Shown here: positions 41,228 through 60,617 of the stretch, piece by piece | Numbering within the stretch: position 1 is the stretch's first letter | How the letters are laid out: each line of letters begins with the position of its first letter | Origin: Chitinophaga sp. | Lineage (GTDB): Bacteria > Bacteroidota > Bacteroidia > Chitinophagales > Chitinophagaceae | DNA: 64,000 nucleotides | NCBI RefSeq assembly: GCF_017745275.1 | Contig: NZ_JAGHZS010000011.1 | Span: forward strand, 1-64,000 | Direction: 5' to 3' | Position numbers and translations under genes: made by a program | The notes under the pieces: model-generated | Told to the model about the DNA's origin: nothing | Database searches by the model: none | The model's input: the letters and a program-made list of their open reading frames with translations, nothing else

Positions 41228-42763
41228 CTATTTCAATTCCAGTACTACCACGGAGAAAGGCGGCAGCTTTACACTGATGGTATTCTTTTTCAGTGTAGCG
41301 CCTTTAAAGTCGACCGGCTTAATGTTATCCGGTTTGGTAAAGCTGTTATAATCCTGCAGTTTGGCGGATGTAAGCACACTGCCACTGATGGACTTATAAC
41401 TTTCACTACGGGTATCCAGCGTAATTTCCTGGGCTTTATGAGCGTCTATGTTAACCAGTGAAATATGGGTAACGCCATTTTTATCTTTCGAAGCCGAAGC
41501 GGATACGGCGGAGAGCTTTTGGTTACCAAACGTATAGTCGTTGCTGTGAATATCTATAGGGATCAGGGTGGCGTCCTGGTGTACGCTGTACATCTCCATC
41601 ACATAGTAAGTGGGTGTGAGCACCATGATATCTCCCTTAGTAAGGATCACAGATTGCAACACATTGATGGCCTGCGCCAGGTTAGCCATGCGTACGCGGT
41701 CTGAGTGGTTGTTAAAGATATTCAGCGTAGATCCGGCAACCATGGCATCCCGCATAGTATTTTGCTGGAAAAGGAAACCAGGATTCGTGCCTCCTTCTAC
41801 GTTATACCATCCTCCCCATTCATCTACCACTAATGCTGTTTTCTTAGCCGGATCATATTTATCCATAATAGCAGCGTGCTTGCGGACAAGGGTATCCATA
41901 AACAGGGCCTGCTTCATAGTCGTGAAATATTGTTCTTCCGTGAAGTCAACTGCATCGCCTTTCCTGTTCCAGTCTATTACAGAATAGTGATGAAGGGCAA
42001 TACCATCCAGGAGAGAACCAGGAATATTTTTCATCAGTACTTCCGTCCAGTTATAATCAGAACTATTGGCACCGGAAGCGATTCTGAAAATGTGTCCCTG
42101 CATGAAGGTGGTAAATTTACGATACAGGTCTACATAGTATTCGGGGCGCATATTGCCTCCGCAGCCCCAGGCTTCATTACCAATTCCCCAGAAGCGCACC
42201 TTCCAGGGTTCGTCGCGGCCGTTCTGCCGGCGCAGGTCTGACATCGGGCTTTTACCGCCGAAGTTGGTGTATTGTACCCAATCGGCCAGTTCCTGCACGG
42301 TACCGCTGCCCACGTTGCCGGAGAGGTAAGGTTCTGCACCGAGTTCCTCGCACATATTCAGGAAGTCGTGTGTACCGAAGCTATTGTTTTCCGTAACATT
42401 TCCCCACCAGGTGTTCACGATGGTAGGCCTCTTATCTTTCGGGCCTATGCCGTCTTTCCAGTGGTAAGTATCCGCAAAACAGCCACCAGGCCAGCGTAAA
42501 TTAGGGATCTTCATTTTACGCAGGGCAGCAATAACATCCTTACGTACCCCGTTGGTATTGGGAATATGAGAGGTGTCGCCTACATAGAATCCACCATAGA
42601 TACAGTTACCGAGGTGCTCTGCAAAATGTCCGTAGATATTTCTGTTAATGGTTTGTGTAGGTGCATCCGGCTTAAAAGTAACCGTGTTTTGTGCCTGTAT
42701 GGCCTGCGTAGAAAGTAGTAACCCCAGGATACCCGTGCGGATATATTGATATTTTTTCTTCAT
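41228..42763 (-). CDS. GH51 alpha-N-arabinofuranosidase (secreted)
   Basis: Signal peptide, [30 protein letters not shown]. Confidence 0.95.
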
Positions 42764-42826
42764 AACGAGGATTTTAAAATACTGCCGGACAGCGATGATT
42801 TGCTGCGGACATTCAAAAAAACAAAA

Positions 42827-42847
42827 TAATTGTCAATTTTACAATTA
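42827..42847. promoter_or_regulatory. Operator-like palindrome TAATTGT-N7-ACAATTA
   Basis: TAATTGT CAATTTT ACAATTA upstream of the GH51/araBDA gene string. Confidence 0.6.
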
Positions 42848-43018
42848 AAAAAGAAAATATTTTACAAAACACATTACCATGGCCAGATACAGATCGTCCC
42901 ACCAGGAACCAATCGTTTTTTTTTCCAACCCATAAAACCACTATTCCGCAGTAGCTATCCCGCTGTACGGAATATATTTTAAGGAGATGACCTACATTTG
43001 CCGGGTAATTATTTGATC

Positions 43019-43726
43019 ATGAAGCATTTTATACTGGCGAGTACCTCCACTTTATTTGGAGAAACCTACCTGGCTTACCTGCAGCCTTCCATGAAGGTAT
43101 TGTTTGCGGGAGTGGAGGAAATCATCTTTATTCCTTTTGCACGGCCGGGTGGTATTTCGCACGATGATTATACCAGCAGGGCGGCGGAAGCCTTTGGTGC
43201 CATTGGCATCCAGGTACGCGGACTGCATACATTCGATGATCCGGCGGCGGCCATCAAAAACGCAAAAGGCTTTTTTACCGGGGGCGGGAATACCTTCCTG
43301 CTGGTGAAAACGCTGCATGAACTGGGCATTATGAACACCCTGCGGGATGCTGTTAACGGCGGAACGCCTTATATGGGATGCAGCGCCGGCAGCAATATAG
43401 GCGGCGTCACCATGCGCAATACCAACGATATGCCCATTGTATATCCTTCCAGTTTTGATACCATGGGGCTTATCCCTTTTAACCTGAATCCACATTACCA
43501 GGATCCCATTGAAGGTTCGCAGCATATGGGAGAAACCCGGGAAACCCGTATCAAAGAATACCTCACACAGAATACAGTGCCGGTATTGGGACTACGGGAA
43601 GGTAGCTGGGTGTATGCACACAACGGCACCTTAACCCTGCAAGGTAAGTTGACCGCCCGCGTTTTTGAAGCAGGCAAAGATCCCTACGAGCTTCCTGCGG
43701 GCAGTTCGCTGGATGGCCTGAAATAA
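43019..43726 (+). CDS. pepE: Dipeptidase E (peptidase S51)
   Basis: GGGNTFLL, YMGCSAGSNI; ATG at 43019, the upstream TTG is part of a TACATTTG -7 box. Confidence 0.92.
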   Translation: MKHFILASTSTLFGETYLAYLQPSMKVLFAGVEEIIFIPFARPGGISHDDYTSRAAEAFGAIGIQVRGLHTFDDPAAAIKNAKGFFTGGGNTFLLVKTLHELGIMNTLRDAVNGGTPYMGCSAGSNIGGVTMRNTNDMPIVYPSSFDTMGLIPFNLNPHYQDPIEGSQHMGETRETRIKEYLTQNTVPVLGLREGSWVYAHNGTLTLQGKLTARVFEAGKDPYELPAGSSLDGLK

Positions 43727-43744
43727 AAAATCTCCCGGAACGCT

Positions 43745-43766
43745 TAAAAGAACAATCATTCTTTTA
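43745..43766. promoter_or_regulatory. Palindrome overlapping the -7 box of a TetR gene, probable autoregulatory operator
   Basis: TAAAAGAA-caatca-TTCTTTTA; TATCTTTG -7 box at 43765-43772. Confidence 0.65.
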
Positions 43767-43776
43767 TCTTTGCGCC

Positions 43777-44367
43777 ATGCGCGCCAAAGATGAAAATAAA
43801 GCTATAGTAATCCGGGAGAAAGCCATGGAGATGATCGTTTCCCAGGGTTTTGACGGATTGAGTATGCATAAACTGGCCAAAGCGGCCGGGATATCTGTAT
43901 CTACCATCTATATTTATTTTAAGAACCGGGAAGATCTGCTGAACCAGCTTTATGCCGAAGCAACCGGCATTTTTGTGCAAACAATGCTGGATGGTTTCAG
44001 CGCGGACATGACTTTCGAACAAGGCCTCTGGCAGCAATGGCGCAACCGTTATCACCATATCCTGCGCCATCCGTTGCATCATCGTTTCTGGGAACAGTTC
44101 CGGAACTCCCCGCTCATTGAAAAACAAAACGATCCCTGCGAACAGCGTTTCAAACAAACCATGCGCGATTTTGTGGCTAACGCGGAAGAAAAGAAAGAAA
44201 TTGTAAAATTGCCGCCAGAAATTTTTTGGGCGATTGCCTATGGTACCTTCTATACACTCGTCAAATTCCACCTCGATAACTCTACCATGGCCGGCCTCCC
44301 CTTCACGCTCAGTGACGAATTACTGAAGCTCACCTTTGACCGGGTAATGCAGGCATTGCGTTTATAA
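43777..44367 (+). CDS. TetR/AcrR family transcriptional regulator
   Basis: N-terminal HTH: GFDGLSMHKLAKAAGISVSTIYIYFKNREDLLNQLY. Confidence 0.93.
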   Translation: MRAKDENKAIVIREKAMEMIVSQGFDGLSMHKLAKAAGISVSTIYIYFKNREDLLNQLYAEATGIFVQTMLDGFSADMTFEQGLWQQWRNRYHHILRHPLHHRFWEQFRNSPLIEKQNDPCEQRFKQTMRDFVANAEEKKEIVKLPPEIFWAIAYGTFYTLVKFHLDNSTMAGLPFTLSDELLKLTFDRVMQALRL

Positions 44368-44405
44368 CGGTAACGTATATACTTTTTTAGTATCTTCACA
44401 GCGGT

Positions 44406-44481
44406 AGAAGTGTAGCTCAGTTGGAAGAGCATTTACCATGCCAGTAAAGGGTCACCGGTTCGAGCCCGGTTGCTTCTACCA
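44406..44481 (+). tRNA. tRNA-like RNA 1, identity unclear; anticodon loop CATGCCA lacks U33
   Basis: Acceptor AGAAGTG/TGCTTCT, D-stem GCTC/GAGC, anticodon stem TTTAC/GTAAA, T-stem ACCGG/CCGGT with TTCGAGC loop, encoded ACCA; helix extends to 44403-44480. Confidence 0.6.
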
Positions 44482-44543
44482 TTTTCTCCTCTCACTCCAC
44501 TAACTACGGGAACGTATATATTTTTGATTACCTTTACGCCGGT

Positions 44544-44618
44544 AAAAGCGTAGTTCAGTTGGAAGAACACTTACCCCAAAGTTCGAGGTCACCGGTTCGA
44601 CTCCGGTCGCTTTTACCA
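44544..44618 (+). ncRNA. tRNA-like RNA 2 with degenerate anticodon arm
   Basis: Acceptor AAAAGCG/CGCTTTT (10 bp with flanks), D-stem GTTC/GAAC, T-stem ACCGG/CCGGT, encoded ACCA; no 5-bp anticodon stem. Confidence 0.5.
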
Positions 44619-44701
44619 TTTTTCTCTACCTGCTTCCCGGTATTTTTCACTGCTCCGTAAGGGTATTTTTCTGTTGAGGTGTGATAACAGAAAAACTGCA
44701 T

Positions 44702-45907
44702 ATGCCTATCATAAAACGACCAGCCAGTTCGATAATCCTCCTGTTTATTGCGACCGCCCTTCTGAATACAATATCCTGTAAAAAAGATCCCGTTGCCGCT
44801 CATCACGAAGAACCAGGTCCCAAACCGGGCCCCCATTCCAATGGGCCTCATCTGCCCGCTACATTATATGATTATGTAAGCACCATCAATAATATGCCTG
44901 CCTGGATGAAAGCACATATGAAAGCCCACCCGGAGCTGGATAATACACCCGCAGACAATCCCATCACCAATGCCGGTGCCACATTGGGAAGGGTACTATT
45001 TTATGATAAATCCCTGTCGGTGAATAATACTGTTGCCTGCGCTTCCTGTCATCATCAGGCCAATGCCTTTGCAGACATCACTGCATTATCGAAAGGATTT
45101 GATGGTGGTCACACACGGCGCAATGCCATGCCGGTAGTGAATATCCGCTTCTTCCCCGACCGCAAAATGTTCTGGGACTTCCGTGCAGGCGACATCGAAA
45201 CACAAACGCTGATGCCTATCGTGGATCATGTGGAAATGGGCATGCCTGATCTGGCTACTTTGGAAAAGAAGTTAAGTACGATAGATTATTACCCGGCCCT
45301 GTTCAAAGCTGCGTTCGGCACCACGGATATCACTGCTGCCAAAATAGGCAAAGCATTGTCGCAATTCCTGCGCTCCATCGTTTCCTTCAATTCAAAATAT
45401 GACCAGGGCGTTGAAAACAATTTCGCCAACTTTACGCCACAGGAATTAGAGGGCCTGCACATCATGCAGCGCGATTTCTGCACGGAATGCCATAGCGACC
45501 TGGGCACCAGTCAACTGGGCCAGAGATCCTCCTTTCTCACGCTGGAAAACACCGGTATCAACACCGGCGTTGGTTCCAACAACGGGCTGGAAACAGATTA
45601 TACCGACAAAGGCTATGGAGAAATTACGCATCAGGCAAAAGATCAGGGCACCTTTAAAATACCCAGTCTCCGTAACGTGGCGCTAACAGCCCCCTATATG
45701 CACGATGGCCGCTTCGCCACACTGGACCAGGTATTGGATCATTATGCCGCTGGAATTAAAGGTAACCCCAACCTCGGCATTCAACTGAGACCCGGTGGTA
45801 TTCCTTTGTCAGCCGATGAAAAAAAGAACCTGATCGCTTTCATGCATACCCTCACCGATGAATCGCTGCTAAAAGATGTAAAGTATGCGGATCCGTTTGT
45901 GAAATAA
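44702..45907 (+). CDS. Cytochrome-c peroxidase (MauG-like diheme) lipoprotein
   Basis: CASCHHQ and CTECHSD haem motifs, lipobox NTISCKK. Confidence 0.93.
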   Translation: MPIIKRPASSIILLFIATALLNTISCKKDPVAAHHEEPGPKPGPHSNGPHLPATLYDYVSTINNMPAWMKAHMKAHPELDNTPADNPITNAGATLGRVLFYDKSLSVNNTVACASCHHQANAFADITALSKGFDGGHTRRNAMPVVNIRFFPDRKMFWDFRAGDIETQTLMPIVDHVEMGMPDLATLEKKLSTIDYYPALFKAAFGTTDITAAKIGKALSQFLRSIVSFNSKYDQGVENNFANFTPQELEGLHIMQRDFCTECHSDLGTSQLGQRSSFLTLENTGINTGVGSNNGLETDYTDKGYGEITHQAKDQGTFKIPSLRNVALTAPYMHDGRFATLDQVLDHYAAGIKGNPNLGIQLRPGGIPLSADEKKNLIAFMHTLTDESLLKDVKYADPFVK

Positions 45908-45966
45908 CACGCACACAGCTGATAACTGTATCGTATACACGCTTAAATCATTACTTTTGCCGCGGC

Positions 45967-46043
45967 AGCAGCATGGACCAATGTTGGAAGGTCGCTTTCC
46001 TGCCAGGAAGGAAATACCAGTTCGAGCCTGGTTGTTGCTGCCA
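45967..46043 (+). tRNA. tRNA-like RNA 3, anticodon GCC (Gly) at 46002-46004
   Basis: Acceptor AGCAGCA/TGTTGCT (10 bp with flanks), D-stem GACC/GGTC, anticodon arm CTTTC-CTGCCAG-GAAGG, T-arm ACCAG-TTCGAGC-CTGGT, CCA encoded. Confidence 0.6.
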
Positions 46044-46067
46044 CCATTATATTTAAGCACCATCACT

Positions 46068-47414
46068 ATGCAGGAGTTCTCAACAGACGAATGGGATAAA
46101 TTTTATACCATATTACAGTTTCTCAGCAAACATCCATTTGACTCCCCTGATACCGAACGTTTAAAAGGATTAGTTACCAAAATATATAAAACGGCCCGTA
46201 AAGAAATCCGGCACACGGAGCTATCGCGCCGCGGAGAAGCTGACCAGCGCAAGATCGCCAACACCGTCGTGTTTCAGCAAGGGCTGCAATCTTCCGTCAG
46301 CCAGGTGGTAGCAGATACCATCTACCTGCCCATCCAACAGGAACTGGAAAGTGCCAGCATCTGCTACTCCTGCCGGGAGCGCTATACCACTGTGCACTTT
46401 CATTATCACCGGCTTTGTCCCCGTTGTGCGCAAATTCATATGGATAAGAAAGCACAGCGTGTATCCCTGACCGGTAGAACCGCCATTGTTACCGGCGCCC
46501 GTATGAAAATCGGGTATGTCACAGCTTTGCGCCTGCTCCGTGATGGCGCCACCGTGATTGCCACCACCCGCTTTCCCGCCGATGCCCTGCTGCAATACAC
46601 CCGGGAACCGGACTACGCCGAATGGAAAGACCGGCTCACCATATACGGTCTGGATCTGATCAGTATCCCGCAGGTAGAGCAATTCCTGCAATATTGTTAT
46701 CAAACTTTACCAGCGCTGGATATCCTCATCAACAACGCCGCACAAACCATTCACTATCCACCGGAATATTACCAGCCTTTAGTGGATAAGGCCGCACAGC
46801 TGCCCTTACTCCCCGCGGCAGACCAGGCAAGGATTGCAGGCACAGCGCCTACCGGTAGCCTCCTGATTGGCAATCCTGACTTATTTCCGCCCGGGCAACT
46901 GGATTACTTCAATCAGCCGTTAGACCTGCGAAGCAGTAATAGCTGGGTGATGCGCCTGGATGAAGTAGACACCACAGAAGTATTGTCGGCCAACCTGGTA
47001 AATAATATATCTCCCTTTATGCTGAACAGCCGCCTCAAAGCGCTGATGCTGCAATCGCCGTTCCCCAACCGGTTCATCATCAATGTAACTTCTTCAGAAG
47101 GGCAATTCAGCTATGCACAGAAAACCATTTACCACCCCCATACCAACATGACCAAAGCCGCACTGAATATGATGACGCGCACCAGTGCCGCCGACTATGC
47201 AACCGCGCATATTTACATGAACAGCGTAGATGTGGGATGGGTATCTACGGGCAACCCGATAGAGAAGAAGTCGAGGCTGGAACAAGATGGTTTCCTACCC
47301 CCGCTCATGCTCGACGATGCCGCCGCACGCATCTATGACCCTATTGTACAGGCCATAAATGGTACGCCGGCATTTGGAAAGCTGTATAAAAATTATGAAG
47401 AGGTAGCCTGGTAA
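46068..47414 (+). CDS. SDR-fold oxidoreductase with N-terminal zinc-ribbon-like domain
   Basis: CYSCRERYTTVHFHYHRLCPRCAQ; TGARMKIG, NNAA; start ATG 46068. Confidence 0.8.
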   Translation: MQEFSTDEWDKFYTILQFLSKHPFDSPDTERLKGLVTKIYKTARKEIRHTELSRRGEADQRKIANTVVFQQGLQSSVSQVVADTIYLPIQQELESASICYSCRERYTTVHFHYHRLCPRCAQIHMDKKAQRVSLTGRTAIVTGARMKIGYVTALRLLRDGATVIATTRFPADALLQYTREPDYAEWKDRLTIYGLDLISIPQVEQFLQYCYQTLPALDILINNAAQTIHYPPEYYQPLVDKAAQLPLLPAADQARIAGTAPTGSLLIGNPDLFPPGQLDYFNQPLDLRSSNSWVMRLDEVDTTEVLSANLVNNISPFMLNSRLKALMLQSPFPNRFIINVTSSEGQFSYAQKTIYHPHTNMTKAALNMMTRTSAADYATAHIYMNSVDVGWVSTGNPIEKKSRLEQDGFLPPLMLDDAAARIYDPIVQAINGTPAFGKLYKNYEEVAW

Positions 47415-47416
47415 GA

Positions 47417-48136
47417 TTACAGCGCTAAACCGCCGTCGCAACGTATTACCGTACCGGTTATATTGCCATTACGCATCAGGAAGCGGATCGTATCTGCTAC
47501 ATCATCAGGTTCTCCTACCCTGCCTACCGGCGTTTGGGCTGCATAGGCTTCAAAGGTAGCAGCCTTATCTGCTGCCGGCAGAAAATCCCACCAGCCGGTA
47601 TTTACCACACCAGGAGAAACAGCGTTGATACGTAAAGGTTGTATTTCTTTAGCTATAGAAGGAATCATTAACTCCAATGCACCGTTGATAGCGGCTAACC
47701 CGGATACACCCGGCGCTTGTGAAATAGCAGAAATAGCTGTAATCAGGGTGATACTGCCGCCTTTATTGATGTAAGGCAGGGCTGCCTGTAAAGTATTCAG
47801 CTGGGGCCAGAATTTGCCTTCAAAGCCTGCTCTCAAATCATCCAGCGATAACTCGGCAAATTTACCGGCTCCTTTTGCACCGCTTAGCGCAATCACCAGG
47901 TGATCAATACCGCCTTGTGTACTAAAAAATGTATCCAGTTCCGCGCGGTTATTACTATCCAGTATAGCGGTTTGTATGCCGGGATTTGCCGCCGCCGCGC
48001 TTTCCAGGCTGGCAGCAGAACGGCCGGTAACAGTTACGGTTGCTTTTTCTTTGGCCAATGAAACAGCGGTTGCCAAACCAATACCTGTGGAACCGCCTGC
48101 AATAACTACTTTCTTACTTTCAAATGTGGTAGACAT
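47417..48136 (-). CDS. SDR family oxidoreductase
   Basis: GGSTGIG, C-terminal GNITGTVIRCDGGLAL. Confidence 0.9.
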   Translation of the reverse strand: MSTTFESKKVVIAGGSTGIGLATAVSLAKEKATVTVTGRSAASLESAAAANPGIQTAILDSNNRAELDTFFSTQGGIDHLVIALSGAKGAGKFAELSLDDLRAGFEGKFWPQLNTLQAALPYINKGGSITLITAISAISQAPGVSGLAAINGALELMIPSIAKEIQPLRINAVSPGVVNTGWWDFLPAADKAATFEAYAAQTPVGRVGEPDDVADTIRFLMRNGNITGTVIRCDGGLAL

Positions 48137-57866: not shown

Positions 57867-60617
57867 TTAGAAAACATTGTATGCAAAAGTGACATAGTAC
57901 ATACCGCCAATAGCGGGGCTACCAAAACCGTTCCTGTAGTAGGTATTGGTTAAATTTACCCCGCCCAGTTTAATAGTAGAATGCGCCTGCAGCAAGCGAT
58001 AGCTTACCTGCGCATCTATCACCGCCGATGCAGGTACGGTACCGCTGCCAAAGCCAATCTGGTAGAAGTAAGCCGGACGATAGCGGAAAGTGGTGTTAAA
58101 AGAAAACCGTTCTTTCTTACCAAATCCGGTGTTACCAAAATCTATGTTGAATTTATAATTCGGCGTATTAAAATTATTCACCTGGCTGTTGTTACGGTTC
58201 TTCAGGAAGTCGGAAGAGAAGTTCACCTTGGCCAGGAAATGATGCGACAGGTCCACGCTCACGCTGGCGGCATAGCCGTAAGTATTTACTTTCTCTGCCC
58301 CGTTGTAGGCAATATTGTATTGCACATATTTACTGTGGTCAAGGAAGTCGTTCGGATCCTTGCTACCTGGTGTATTCGCCACGTTCACATACCCGATAAA
58401 GTTTTTCCAGGTGGAATAATAGCCTAATACATCGATGAGCACACAACCGCCGATCAGGGAAGAATAACCTAACTCGAATGCATCTACGGATTGCGGCTTG
58501 ATATCATTAAGCTGAAAGGTTTTCAGGTCTGCCGGATTTTTGGTGCGTTTGAAAGTATCCACGCTGGCCAGCGTATAAGCCGGGTATTGATCAAAATGAT
58601 AAACGCCGTTGAGCAGCCGGTCGGAGCCGCCGGAAGCAAAACTGTTATAGTCCACCGGTGTGCTTTGCAGCGATTGAATATTAGACGGGAAGCTGTATGC
58701 GTTCTGGTAAGAGAAGCGGATAAAGCTTTCCTTATTTACTTCCAGTACGGCGGACGCCCGGGTAGTAATGCGTGGTTTGGCGAACAGGGTATTTTTATCA
58801 TACCGGAAAGCGGTAGCCAGGCTCAGTTTCTCGTGTATTACTTTTTTAGTGAGATGAGCATAAGCGCTGTACTCTGCCACATCAATCGGTGCGTCATTGT
58901 CGGGGAAGAGCGTGCCTTTTGAATCGAGGCGGTAGAGGCGATAATTCAGCCCTGCAATCAATTCCGCAAATTTTATGAGGTGAGTAAAATTGTATTGGGT
59001 TTCTGCGTTAAACAAGCGGCTTTTGTCGGTGAACAGGGTACCACCTTTAGAGGTGGGGATACCGGAGATGCTGTCTTTCAGGTGCAGGAACAGTGCGCTG
59101 CCGGCATCGGGGCGGCCTTTATCCGCAAATGTTCTGGCCAGTGCGCTGGCATCGAGGTAGCTTTTTCCCTGCGACATTGCTTCCAGTAATGCGCTGGTAT
59201 ACTGCGGGTACCAGCCATCGCCGGTGTTGCCGTCGTAGCTGGGCTTCCAGGCTTCGTTGACCAGCTGGGCGGTGGGCATCGCAATAATAGTACGACCGGA
59301 ATTTTCCCGGCTGGTATAAGCGCGCACAAACCAGTGTTCTGCTTTCAGTTCTGCGCGGTATTGCCCGAGGTGAAAACCTTTCAGTGCGTAACGGGTATCA
59401 TTGCTGTATACCGCATCGCCTTGTCCGTAGGTGCCGGAGAGAATGGCTTCCAACTTGGGTTTTATCTTATAGCGCAGTTCTACGTTGGCTTTAAACATTT
59501 TGGCATCACTGCTGAGGTATCCATATTCAGGGTACCCGGTGCGTGCTACGTAGTGGTTGCCTTCTGCCAGCATGGGATTGATGATAGGCGCCAGTTCAGG
59601 CACCTGTTGCAGTGCGCCTTCCAGGAAAGGATTGATATCTACCGAGGTTTTGCTACCGTACATATTTACCCCGTTGTAATTAGGGTCCTGCAATGGGCCA
59701 CCGGGACCGTTGGTGTTGGTGGTATCGTTGGCCATCCAGTCTTTGGCCTGGGTGTATTGCATATTTATTTTGAAGGCAAATTTGTCGCTTACTTTTTTGG
59801 CCCAGCGAACGGTCCAGTCGTAATACGGTGATGGTCCAAGCGGGTCATTTGACTTTCCTTTTTTCACGTGATTAACGCCCTGTGTGATCTGGGCGCTGAG
59901 GCCCTGGTATTTGAACGGATCTTTCCCGGTCATGACCATGGTACCATTGAGGCCGCGGGAGCCGTAGAGGGCCGACGAAGCACCGGAGAGTACTTCGAGG
60001 TTGTCCACGTCCAGCTCAGTGAGCCCGATGATGGCGCCGATGGGGAAGTTCAGGCCTGGGGCCTGGTTATCCATTCCATCTACGATCTGGGTGAAGTTGG
60101 TGTTGCCGCTGGTATTAAAACCGCGGGTGGTGATAGTGGTGAACAGCAAACTGGAGGTGGTTACATCTACGCCTTTGAGGCCCTGTATCATGTTATAATA
60201 GCTGGGCTGCGGGGAGTTGATGATGTCTTTGGTACCAATCCTTTCGATGGTTACCGGTGATTCAATTTTCTTTTGTACAAAGCGGCTGGCTGAAACCACC
60301 ACTTCCTTACCGAGTACCGAAGCAGGTGCAAGCTCTATGCGTTGGAAACCGGGGCCGGAAATGATGATTTCTTTTGTTTCAAAGCCTACCGATGACAGTA
60401 TAAGGGTAACAGGATAATTTTTGCGTGTAGAGAATTTAAAGTTGCCCTGATCATTGGTATAATCTCCATTGGGTGCTTCCTTCATGGTAACAGACACAAC
60501 GGGGACTACTTCCTTGGTGGAACTGTTCCTGACATTTCCCGAAATGACAATTTGAGCCTTTGCGCTAAACTGTAACAGCAAGCAGCAAACCAATCCTATG
60601 AAAATGGATCTTAACAT
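57867..60617 (-). CDS. TonB-dependent receptor
   Basis: Carboxypeptidase-like N-terminus, plug VDNLEVLSGASSALYGSRGLNGTMVMTGK. Confidence 0.95.
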   Translation of the reverse strand: MLRSIFIGLVCCLLLQFSAKAQIVISGNVRNSSTKEVVPVVSVTMKEAPNGDYTNDQGNFKFSTRKNYPVTLILSSVGFETKEIIISGPGFQRIELAPASVLGKEVVVSASRFVQKKIESPVTIERIGTKDIINSPQPSYYNMIQGLKGVDVTTSSLLFTTITTRGFNTSGNTNFTQIVDGMDNQAPGLNFPIGAIIGLTELDVDNLEVLSGASSALYGSRGLNGTMVMTGKDPFKYQGLSAQITQGVNHVKKGKSNDPLGPSPYYDWTVRWAKKVSDKFAFKINMQYTQAKDWMANDTTNTNGPGGPLQDPNYNGVNMYGSKTSVDINPFLEGALQQVPELAPIINPMLAEGNHYVARTGYPEYGYLSSDAKMFKANVELRYKIKPKLEAILSGTYGQGDAVYSNDTRYALKGFHLGQYRAELKAEHWFVRAYTSRENSGRTIIAMPTAQLVNEAWKPSYDGNTGDGWYPQYTSALLEAMSQGKSYLDASALARTFADKGRPDAGSALFLHLKDSISGIPTSKGGTLFTDKSRLFNAETQYNFTHLIKFAELIAGLNYRLYRLDSKGTLFPDNDAPIDVAEYSAYAHLTKKVIHEKLSLATAFRYDKNTLFAKPRITTRASAVLEVNKESFIRFSYQNAYSFPSNIQSLQSTPVDYNSFASGGSDRLLNGVYHFDQYPAYTLASVDTFKRTKNPADLKTFQLNDIKPQSVDAFELGYSSLIGGCVLIDVLGYYSTWKNFIGYVNVANTPGSKDPNDFLDHSKYVQYNIAYNGAEKVNTYGYAASVSVDLSHHFLAKVNFSSDFLKNRNNSQVNNFNTPNYKFNIDFGNTGFGKKERFSFNTTFRYRPAYFYQIGFGSGTVPASAVIDAQVSYRLLQAHSTIKLGGVNLTNTYYRNGFGSPAIGGMYYVTFAYNVF

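Follow-up and report, generated by a model that had tools for sequence, protein, structure and literature searches.

Three tRNA-like elements in a Chitinophaga sp. genome (NCBI RefSeq assembly GCF_017745275.1, contig NZ_JAGHZS010000011.1; the whole stretch of 64,000 nucleotides analyzed is here called the window) belong to a group of tRNA-likes that is linked across phyla to a gene for an SDR-fold protein. These SDR-linked tRNA-likes almost certainly have no role in protein synthesis, and we lean, by somewhat more than an even chance, toward their being dedicated, trans-acting, non-decoding tRNA-mimic partners of the SDR, loosely like Ro60-YrlA. No family described so far has all of the features tested here. 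The elements lie where a preliminary description of this DNA had placed them, and their 10-bp helices are as quoted there; the shared promoter and the linked SDR gene had been overlooked.

All three elements are on the forward strand. Element 1 (44403-44481) forms a 10-bp helix (GGTAGAAGTG/TGCTTCTACC), ends in ACCA followed by TTTT, and has the D-loop GTTGGAA, the anticodon loop CATGCCA (A33, UGC) and the T-loop TTCGAGC. Element 2 (44541-44618; helix GGTAAAAGCG/CGCTTTTACC; ACCA, then TTTTT) has two broken pairs in its anticodon stem and a 6-nt loop, CCCAAA. Element 3 (45964-46043; helix GGCAGCAGCA/TGTTGCTGCC; GCCA end) carries the anticodon loop CTGCCAG (GCC) and has the U33 that element 1 lacks. 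They share a 10+5 layout with a 5-bp T-stem and a 5-nt variable loop, and acceptor pairing runs over 10 bp from the 5' GGY to position 75 (RCC). ARAGORN called element 1 Ala(tgc), element 2 "???" and element 3 Gly(gcc), while the Rfam tRNA model matched elements 1 and 2 (48.9 and 45.9 bits) and gave no match to element 3. The Val and Gly tRNA genes read in the same genome do not encode CCA, so the ACC:GGT pairing is no accident of a CCA-encoding tRNA set. Elements 2 and 3 are separated by a di-haem cytochrome c peroxidase/MauG gene (44702-45907, forward strand; Pfam PF03150), probably an unrelated insertion, and no such gene is present between the tandem elements of the syntenic locus in genome G074 (compare L148). 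A further ARAGORN call, tRNA-Stop(tta) at 58765-58842, was taken as false, there being no TTCRA T-loop motif at that place.

Each element follows a promoter of its own on the forward strand. For element 1 it spans 44374-44402, with CGTATA at 44374-44379 and the -7 motif TATCTTCACAGC at 44391-44402 abutting GG; the corresponding positions are 44513-44540 for element 2 (CGTATA, 44513-44518; TACCTTTACGCC, 44529-44540) and 45932-45963 for element 3 (CGTATA, 45932-45937; TACTTTTGCCGC, 45952-45963). A Bacteroidota promoter motif is common to the three, with the element starting 4 nt 3' of it; the consensus reads TAnnTTnRCnnC and runs at once into GG, and CGTATA stands about 28 to 32 nt 5' of this GG. 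The layout is kept in 11 aligned relatives (invariants TA..TT..C..C.G) and suggests that transcription starts at or beside the acceptor helix, the predicted position being its first G.

In the three window copies, all 30 acceptor cells are paired; both partners vary at pairs 3, 5, 6 and 10, and just one partner at pairs 8 and 9. The preliminary description had listed pairs 3, 5, 6, 9 and 10 as varying, which stands for the four double-changed pairs, while pair 9 is one-sided and pair 8 had been omitted. When 11 copies were aligned without a model, double changes occurred in 18 of 24 pairs and the covariation score was 0.617, against 0.244 for shuffles and at most 0.214 for slid controls. Alignment of 33 Chitinophaga elements to model R2 (promoter plus element) gave 0.865 versus 0.288 for shuffled alignments (reached by none of 500), with double changes in 23 of 24 pairs, including all ten acceptor pairs; the four tRNA helices covary. 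Since the larger alignment was fitted to the structure, the 11-copy alignment is the more independent test. Because the wider family covaries, chance is excluded for the pairing in the three copies, and the earlier proposal of selection on RNA structure rather than decay is borne out by both alignments. GG in the D-loop and GTTCGA in the T-loop are invariant in the 11 copies, as in the cloverleaf of canonical tRNA.

Covariance model R1, built from the three window copies along the lines proposed with the preliminary description, scored these copies at 92 to 98 bits (98.1 for element 1) and other tRNAs of the genome at no more than 60, but in a search across the genus its top ranks went mostly to tRNA-Phe, Val and Ala of the ordinary kind. 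Searching 60 relatives by DNA similarity yielded T-arm fragments and one weak match only. It was a strict pattern search that returned locus L059, where an element lies directly 5' of an orthologue of the gene after element 3, and that led to the SDR link. The end of element 3 is 24 nt from the SDR start codon, which places the element within the SDR 5' leader, and its position is orthologous in 7 species; all seven close SDR orthologues (64 to 72% identity) have an element in the same place behind the same promoter, widely diverged in sequence. With R2 we found a second Chitinophaga group of 15 further genomes, in which a distant SDR is accompanied by elements; in the fully read loci these number one to four in tandem and are convergent to the 3' end of an SDR-LRR operon. 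All 23 Chitinophaga genomes with the SDR gene also carry elements, although in genome G031 the three-element array is 16 kb from it.

Two genomes depart from this pairing. In G076, three tRNA-likes, one with an extended acceptor (L283, 6371-6630; G076:C1, about 3016.4-3016.6 kb), are enclosed by the ankyrin/LysR-like genes that in other species border SDR-LRR loci, and the SDR gene was not found in the G076 genome despite this syntenic position. In G007, a lone extra element (L160, 7457-7550) has no SDR at its site, and the syntenic L153 has element and SDR together.

For the comparison across phyla, loci were picked by SDR similarity alone and then scanned for tRNAs. Among SDRs with the N-terminal domain described below, tRNA-likes were found within 700 nt in 24 of 27 loci, versus 7 of 66 loci without the domain (Fisher p = 6e-12, computed on 23 of 27 versus 7 of 66, before L174 was restored, its element having been dropped as a duplicate). 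The seven hits among loci lacking the domain comprise four apparent ordinary tRNAs, near the gene by coincidence, and three tRNA-likes of actinobacteria. As for the negatives, L183 is the G031 species, i.e., the 16-kb case, and Nostoc L178 and Thiomargarita L181 have no element within 5 kb. Single or tandem tRNA-likes lie within a few hundred nucleotides of the SDR in Desulfobacterales, Parabeggiatoa, cyanobacteria, Flavobacterium, Mucilaginibacter, Crocinitomix and Chryseobacterium, and also in Sphingobacterium, Campylobacteraceae, Tannerellaceae, SAR324, Armatimonadota, Variovorax and three actinobacteria; a Deinococcus plasmid has the same arrangement. As a number of these records come from metagenome binning, individual taxon labels could be mistaken.

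The SDR-adjacent copies depart from decoding tRNAs in several respects. We compared 85 readable copies with 107 other tRNAs of the same loci, a convenience sample in which Val, Gly and Ala are over-represented: U33 was present in 53% versus 96%, C73 in 26/85 versus 4/107 and an encoded CCA in 5% versus 16%, and synthetase identity elements were mostly missing, with G3:U70 in 4/22 Ala-type copies versus 12/14 others, C2:G71 in 0/13 Gly-type copies versus 25/26 others, and G73 in none of 12 Asp-type copies. These features agree with the earlier statement that the elements are not normal elongator tRNAs and act outside decoding; the encoded NCCA noted at the same time is present in the three window copies but is not typical of the family. 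An outer helix of at least 4 bp, by a measure that allows one bulge, was found in 26% of the SDR-adjacent copies and 3.5% of the others, and in 7% (maximum, 15%) when leaders and trailers were randomly re-paired. In Chitinophaga arrays the first copies have a strong outer helix, often with a bulge at position 73, whereas other copies have a weaker one; for elements next to this gene in other phyla, the acceptor often has 7 bp plus 0 to 3. Because many copies outside Chitinophaga have a weak outer helix or none, the long acceptor is a lineage elaboration, chiefly of Chitinophaga, and does not define the family as first thought. Homologues with a 7-bp acceptor, named at the outset as counterevidence if they were ordinary tRNAs, do occur to some extent outside Chitinophaga, but these are non-canonical tRNA-likes.

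The linked gene (46068-47414, forward strand; Pfam PF00106/PF13561) encodes a 448-amino-acid protein composed of an N-terminal helical domain (residues 6 to 64; helices 6-21 and 29-64), a zinc ribbon (C99, C102, C117 and C120) and a Rossmann fold. The AlphaFold2 model (pLDDT 89, pTM 0.86) retrieved classical SDRs in Foldseek, and Pfam and NCBIfam gave generic SDR matches only. A TGxxxGxG-type cofactor motif and the NNA motif place the protein in the SDR superfamily; the catalytic YxxxK is absent. The catalytic Tyr is replaced by T359 (TxxxK363) in the window protein and by Thr in all 34 aligned homologues, with the Lys kept; in the same alignment HPHTNM is invariant and a TG(G/A)RxKIG-like motif and NNAAQT are aligned. 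Phage and viral collections held no useful homologue, but phrog_3142 of PHROG matches the C-terminal half (window 46068-47411; E, 2e-38), and a relative that tblastn missed may therefore exist in some phages. In one clade of Chitinophaga, in two cyanobacteria and in an armatimonad, the SDR is directly followed by an LRR gene. These LRR genes (L141-L147, L155-L158, L177, L185 and L195) are ribonuclease-inhibitor-like, and a C-terminal AIKSVYR is invariant in the eight Chitinophaga copies that were aligned.

The position of the elements varies: they precede or follow the SDR, converge on it or lie at a distance, in Chitinophaga usually behind their own promoter. An RNA partner that acts in trans is the most economical reading of this variety. 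Small RNAs would be transcribed from these promoters, beginning with the G that opens the long acceptor helix, and the N-terminal Lys/Arg-rich helical domain and the zinc ribbon may hold the tRNA-like body by its elbow and lengthened acceptor helix. The SDR core, with its NAD(P)-binding Lys kept and its catalytic Tyr lost, would serve as scaffold or effector. The RNA could act in trans whether co-transcribed with the SDR (5' or 3' of it), encoded in a convergent array or located kilobases away, and one genome may carry several copies with different anticodon arms. As a more speculative extension, to which we attach a rather low probability, interchangeable tRNA-mimics might gate or address this NAD(P)-binding, catalytically altered SDR, with anticodon arms that sense, for example, tRNA-attacking toxins or the state of tRNA.

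The orphan arrays of G076 and G007 and the leader placement in some loci keep other explanations alive, and an element located upstream of the SDR also belongs to its mRNA leader, which leaves room for a role in cis. The main rival, unlikely in our estimate, is a 5' UTR tRNA-like that autoregulates or is processed, either bound by the SDR or cut by RNase P/RNase Z, and in this way controls SDR expression. It would suit element 3 and its seven orthologues, located 20 to 45 nt 5' of the SDR start, where no promoter is visible other than the one preceding the element, and the comparably placed copies in Desulfobacterales, cyanobacterial, SAR324, Variovorax and actinobacterial loci. It fits poorly with Flavobacterium, where elements follow the SDR stop codon, with the ten fully read Chitinophaga loci that are convergent to the operon and with the 16-kb distance in G031, and tandem arrays of two to six copies, which do occur, are not expected of a leader.

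The variation of the anticodon loop on a common body within one locus (copies of L196 and L179) would also be explained if the RNAs were sentinels or decoys for tRNA-cutting ribotoxins, the loops being bait and the cut RNAs inactivating the toxin or signaling via the SDR, with RNA repair alongside. An Rnl1-type RNA ligase, PNKP and TatD are encoded near the SDR in three Flavobacterium species (L179, L182 and L184), DUF434-DUF5616 genes occur in other loci, and RNA repair operons under the control of damaged tRNAs exist (PMC7790460). No repair gene was recognized in the Chitinophaga loci or most others, however, and there was no evident toxin gene and no match of SDR or LRR to PADLOC-DB defense models at 0.01; we regard this explanation as improbable. 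Of the options raised in the preliminary description, a regulatory decoy and a tRNA-mimic small RNA may both still apply.

Its remaining option, a non-proteinogenic aminoacyl carrier, has lost ground. Charged tRNA-likes, mostly for amino acids of GNN codons, would present an aminoacyl group on which the SDR acts. The anticodons are varied; about 61% of the readable ones end in C, with Ala, Gly and Asp prominent, and RCCA is encoded in all three copies of the window. Since the comparison set is equally C36-rich, little weight attaches to the anticodon bias. Canonical identity elements and an encoded CCA are mostly missing, most first copies in Chitinophaga have their 3' end engaged in the longer helix, and the SDR has lost its catalytic Tyr throughout the alignment, which makes a dedicated carrier very unlikely.

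Integration commonly takes place at tRNA genes. That the elements are tRNA genes in decay, or remnants of attachment sites, which flank an SDR island by chance is nevertheless the least credible explanation, even with the damaged anticodon stem of element 2 and a Bacillus cereus pseudo-tRNA that flanks an island (PMC3399842), since every helix covaries with compensation, the elements have conserved promoters of their own, and they are multiplied in tandem, placed on either side of the gene and found again across phyla.

Returning to the trans-acting partner of the SDR, the closest parallel is YrlA with Rsr/Ro60, in which a non-decoding RNA combines a tRNA-like module with pairing between its 5' and 3' ends and has one protein partner, sometimes beside RNA repair genes (PMC8394870). 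The tRNA-like module, paired ends, tie to one protein and occasional RNA repair neighbors recur here, the tie being a linkage seen in genomes, but in the present case the protein is an SDR and the RNA has the fold of a full cloverleaf. Membership in YrlA was rejected: the Rfam model RF02553 matched neither window 42500-47500 (E up to 1) nor L142-L144 (E up to 0.1), and neither the window's genome (G000) nor G074 has a TROVE (Ro60/Rsr) gene. TROVE loci do occur separately in sister species of Chitinophaga, in some cases with weak matches to YrlA nearby (L284, 3863-4948, in G010; L285; L291). L284 also contains one complete tRNA-like, whose D-loop has GGAA, and pieces of tRNA with other sequence in between.

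Allo-tRNAs (8/4, 9/3) and irregular tRNA polycistrons, whose irregular tandem tRNAs are not charged by E. coli synthetases (PMC7609411), resemble the present elements in their longer acceptor arm, diverse anticodons and tandem irregular tRNAs. The elements described here differ in that the T-stem has 5 bp, the extra pairs lie outside the 7-bp acceptor, between the leader and the 73-75 region, and an SDR gene is linked, of which the review makes no mention (the word "dehydrogenase" is absent; PMC7609411). Assignment as tRNASec or allo-tRNA, with a 12- to 13-bp branch (8/4, 9/3 or 8/5) and a long variable arm, was rejected on the 10+5 layout and 5-nt variable loop of the window copies, and assignment as canonical elongator tRNA on the 10-bp helix to position 75, A33 in element 1 and the mostly absent identity elements. 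Bacillus cereus tRNA-Other is likewise a tRNA-like outside translation, proposed to be part of a regulatory RNA; it lies within a larger regulatory transcript at an island border, and its abstract describes no SDR partner (PMC3399842).

For the protein, human mitochondrial RNase P offers a precedent by analogy: in TRMT10C-SDR5C1 an SDR is the scaffold of a tRNA-binding complex and its dehydrogenase activity is not needed (PMC10941002), much as an SDR-fold scaffold might act here. That complex is eukaryotic and handles real tRNAs via TRMT10C, while RNA binding is not detectable for SDR5C1 by itself; the comparison drawn here is at the level of the SDR fold.

The open-licence literature yielded no description of SDR-linked tRNA-likes; irregular tRNA polycistrons were found (PMC7609411). 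If the proposed partnership is true, what is now annotated as odd tRNAs next to a generic "SDR family oxidoreductase" would be mis-annotated and would represent a widespread class of tRNA-mimic non-coding RNA with a dedicated SDR-fold partner. It would be a second bacterial tRNA-mimic RNP beside Ro-YrlA, would show that bacteria, too, have recruited an SDR to RNA, and would account for a number of non-canonical tRNA predictions that have been puzzling.

Some minor features of individual loci were also recorded. DUF434-DUF5616 genes are near the SDR in L180, L184 and L188, and a gene for 228 amino acids lies directly 5' of the SDR in L179, L182 and L184. Within each of L179, L182, L184, L188 and L196, the copies have the same acceptor and T-stem and a different anticodon arm, and many second copies in these loci have self-complementary loops such as TTTGCTAAA.
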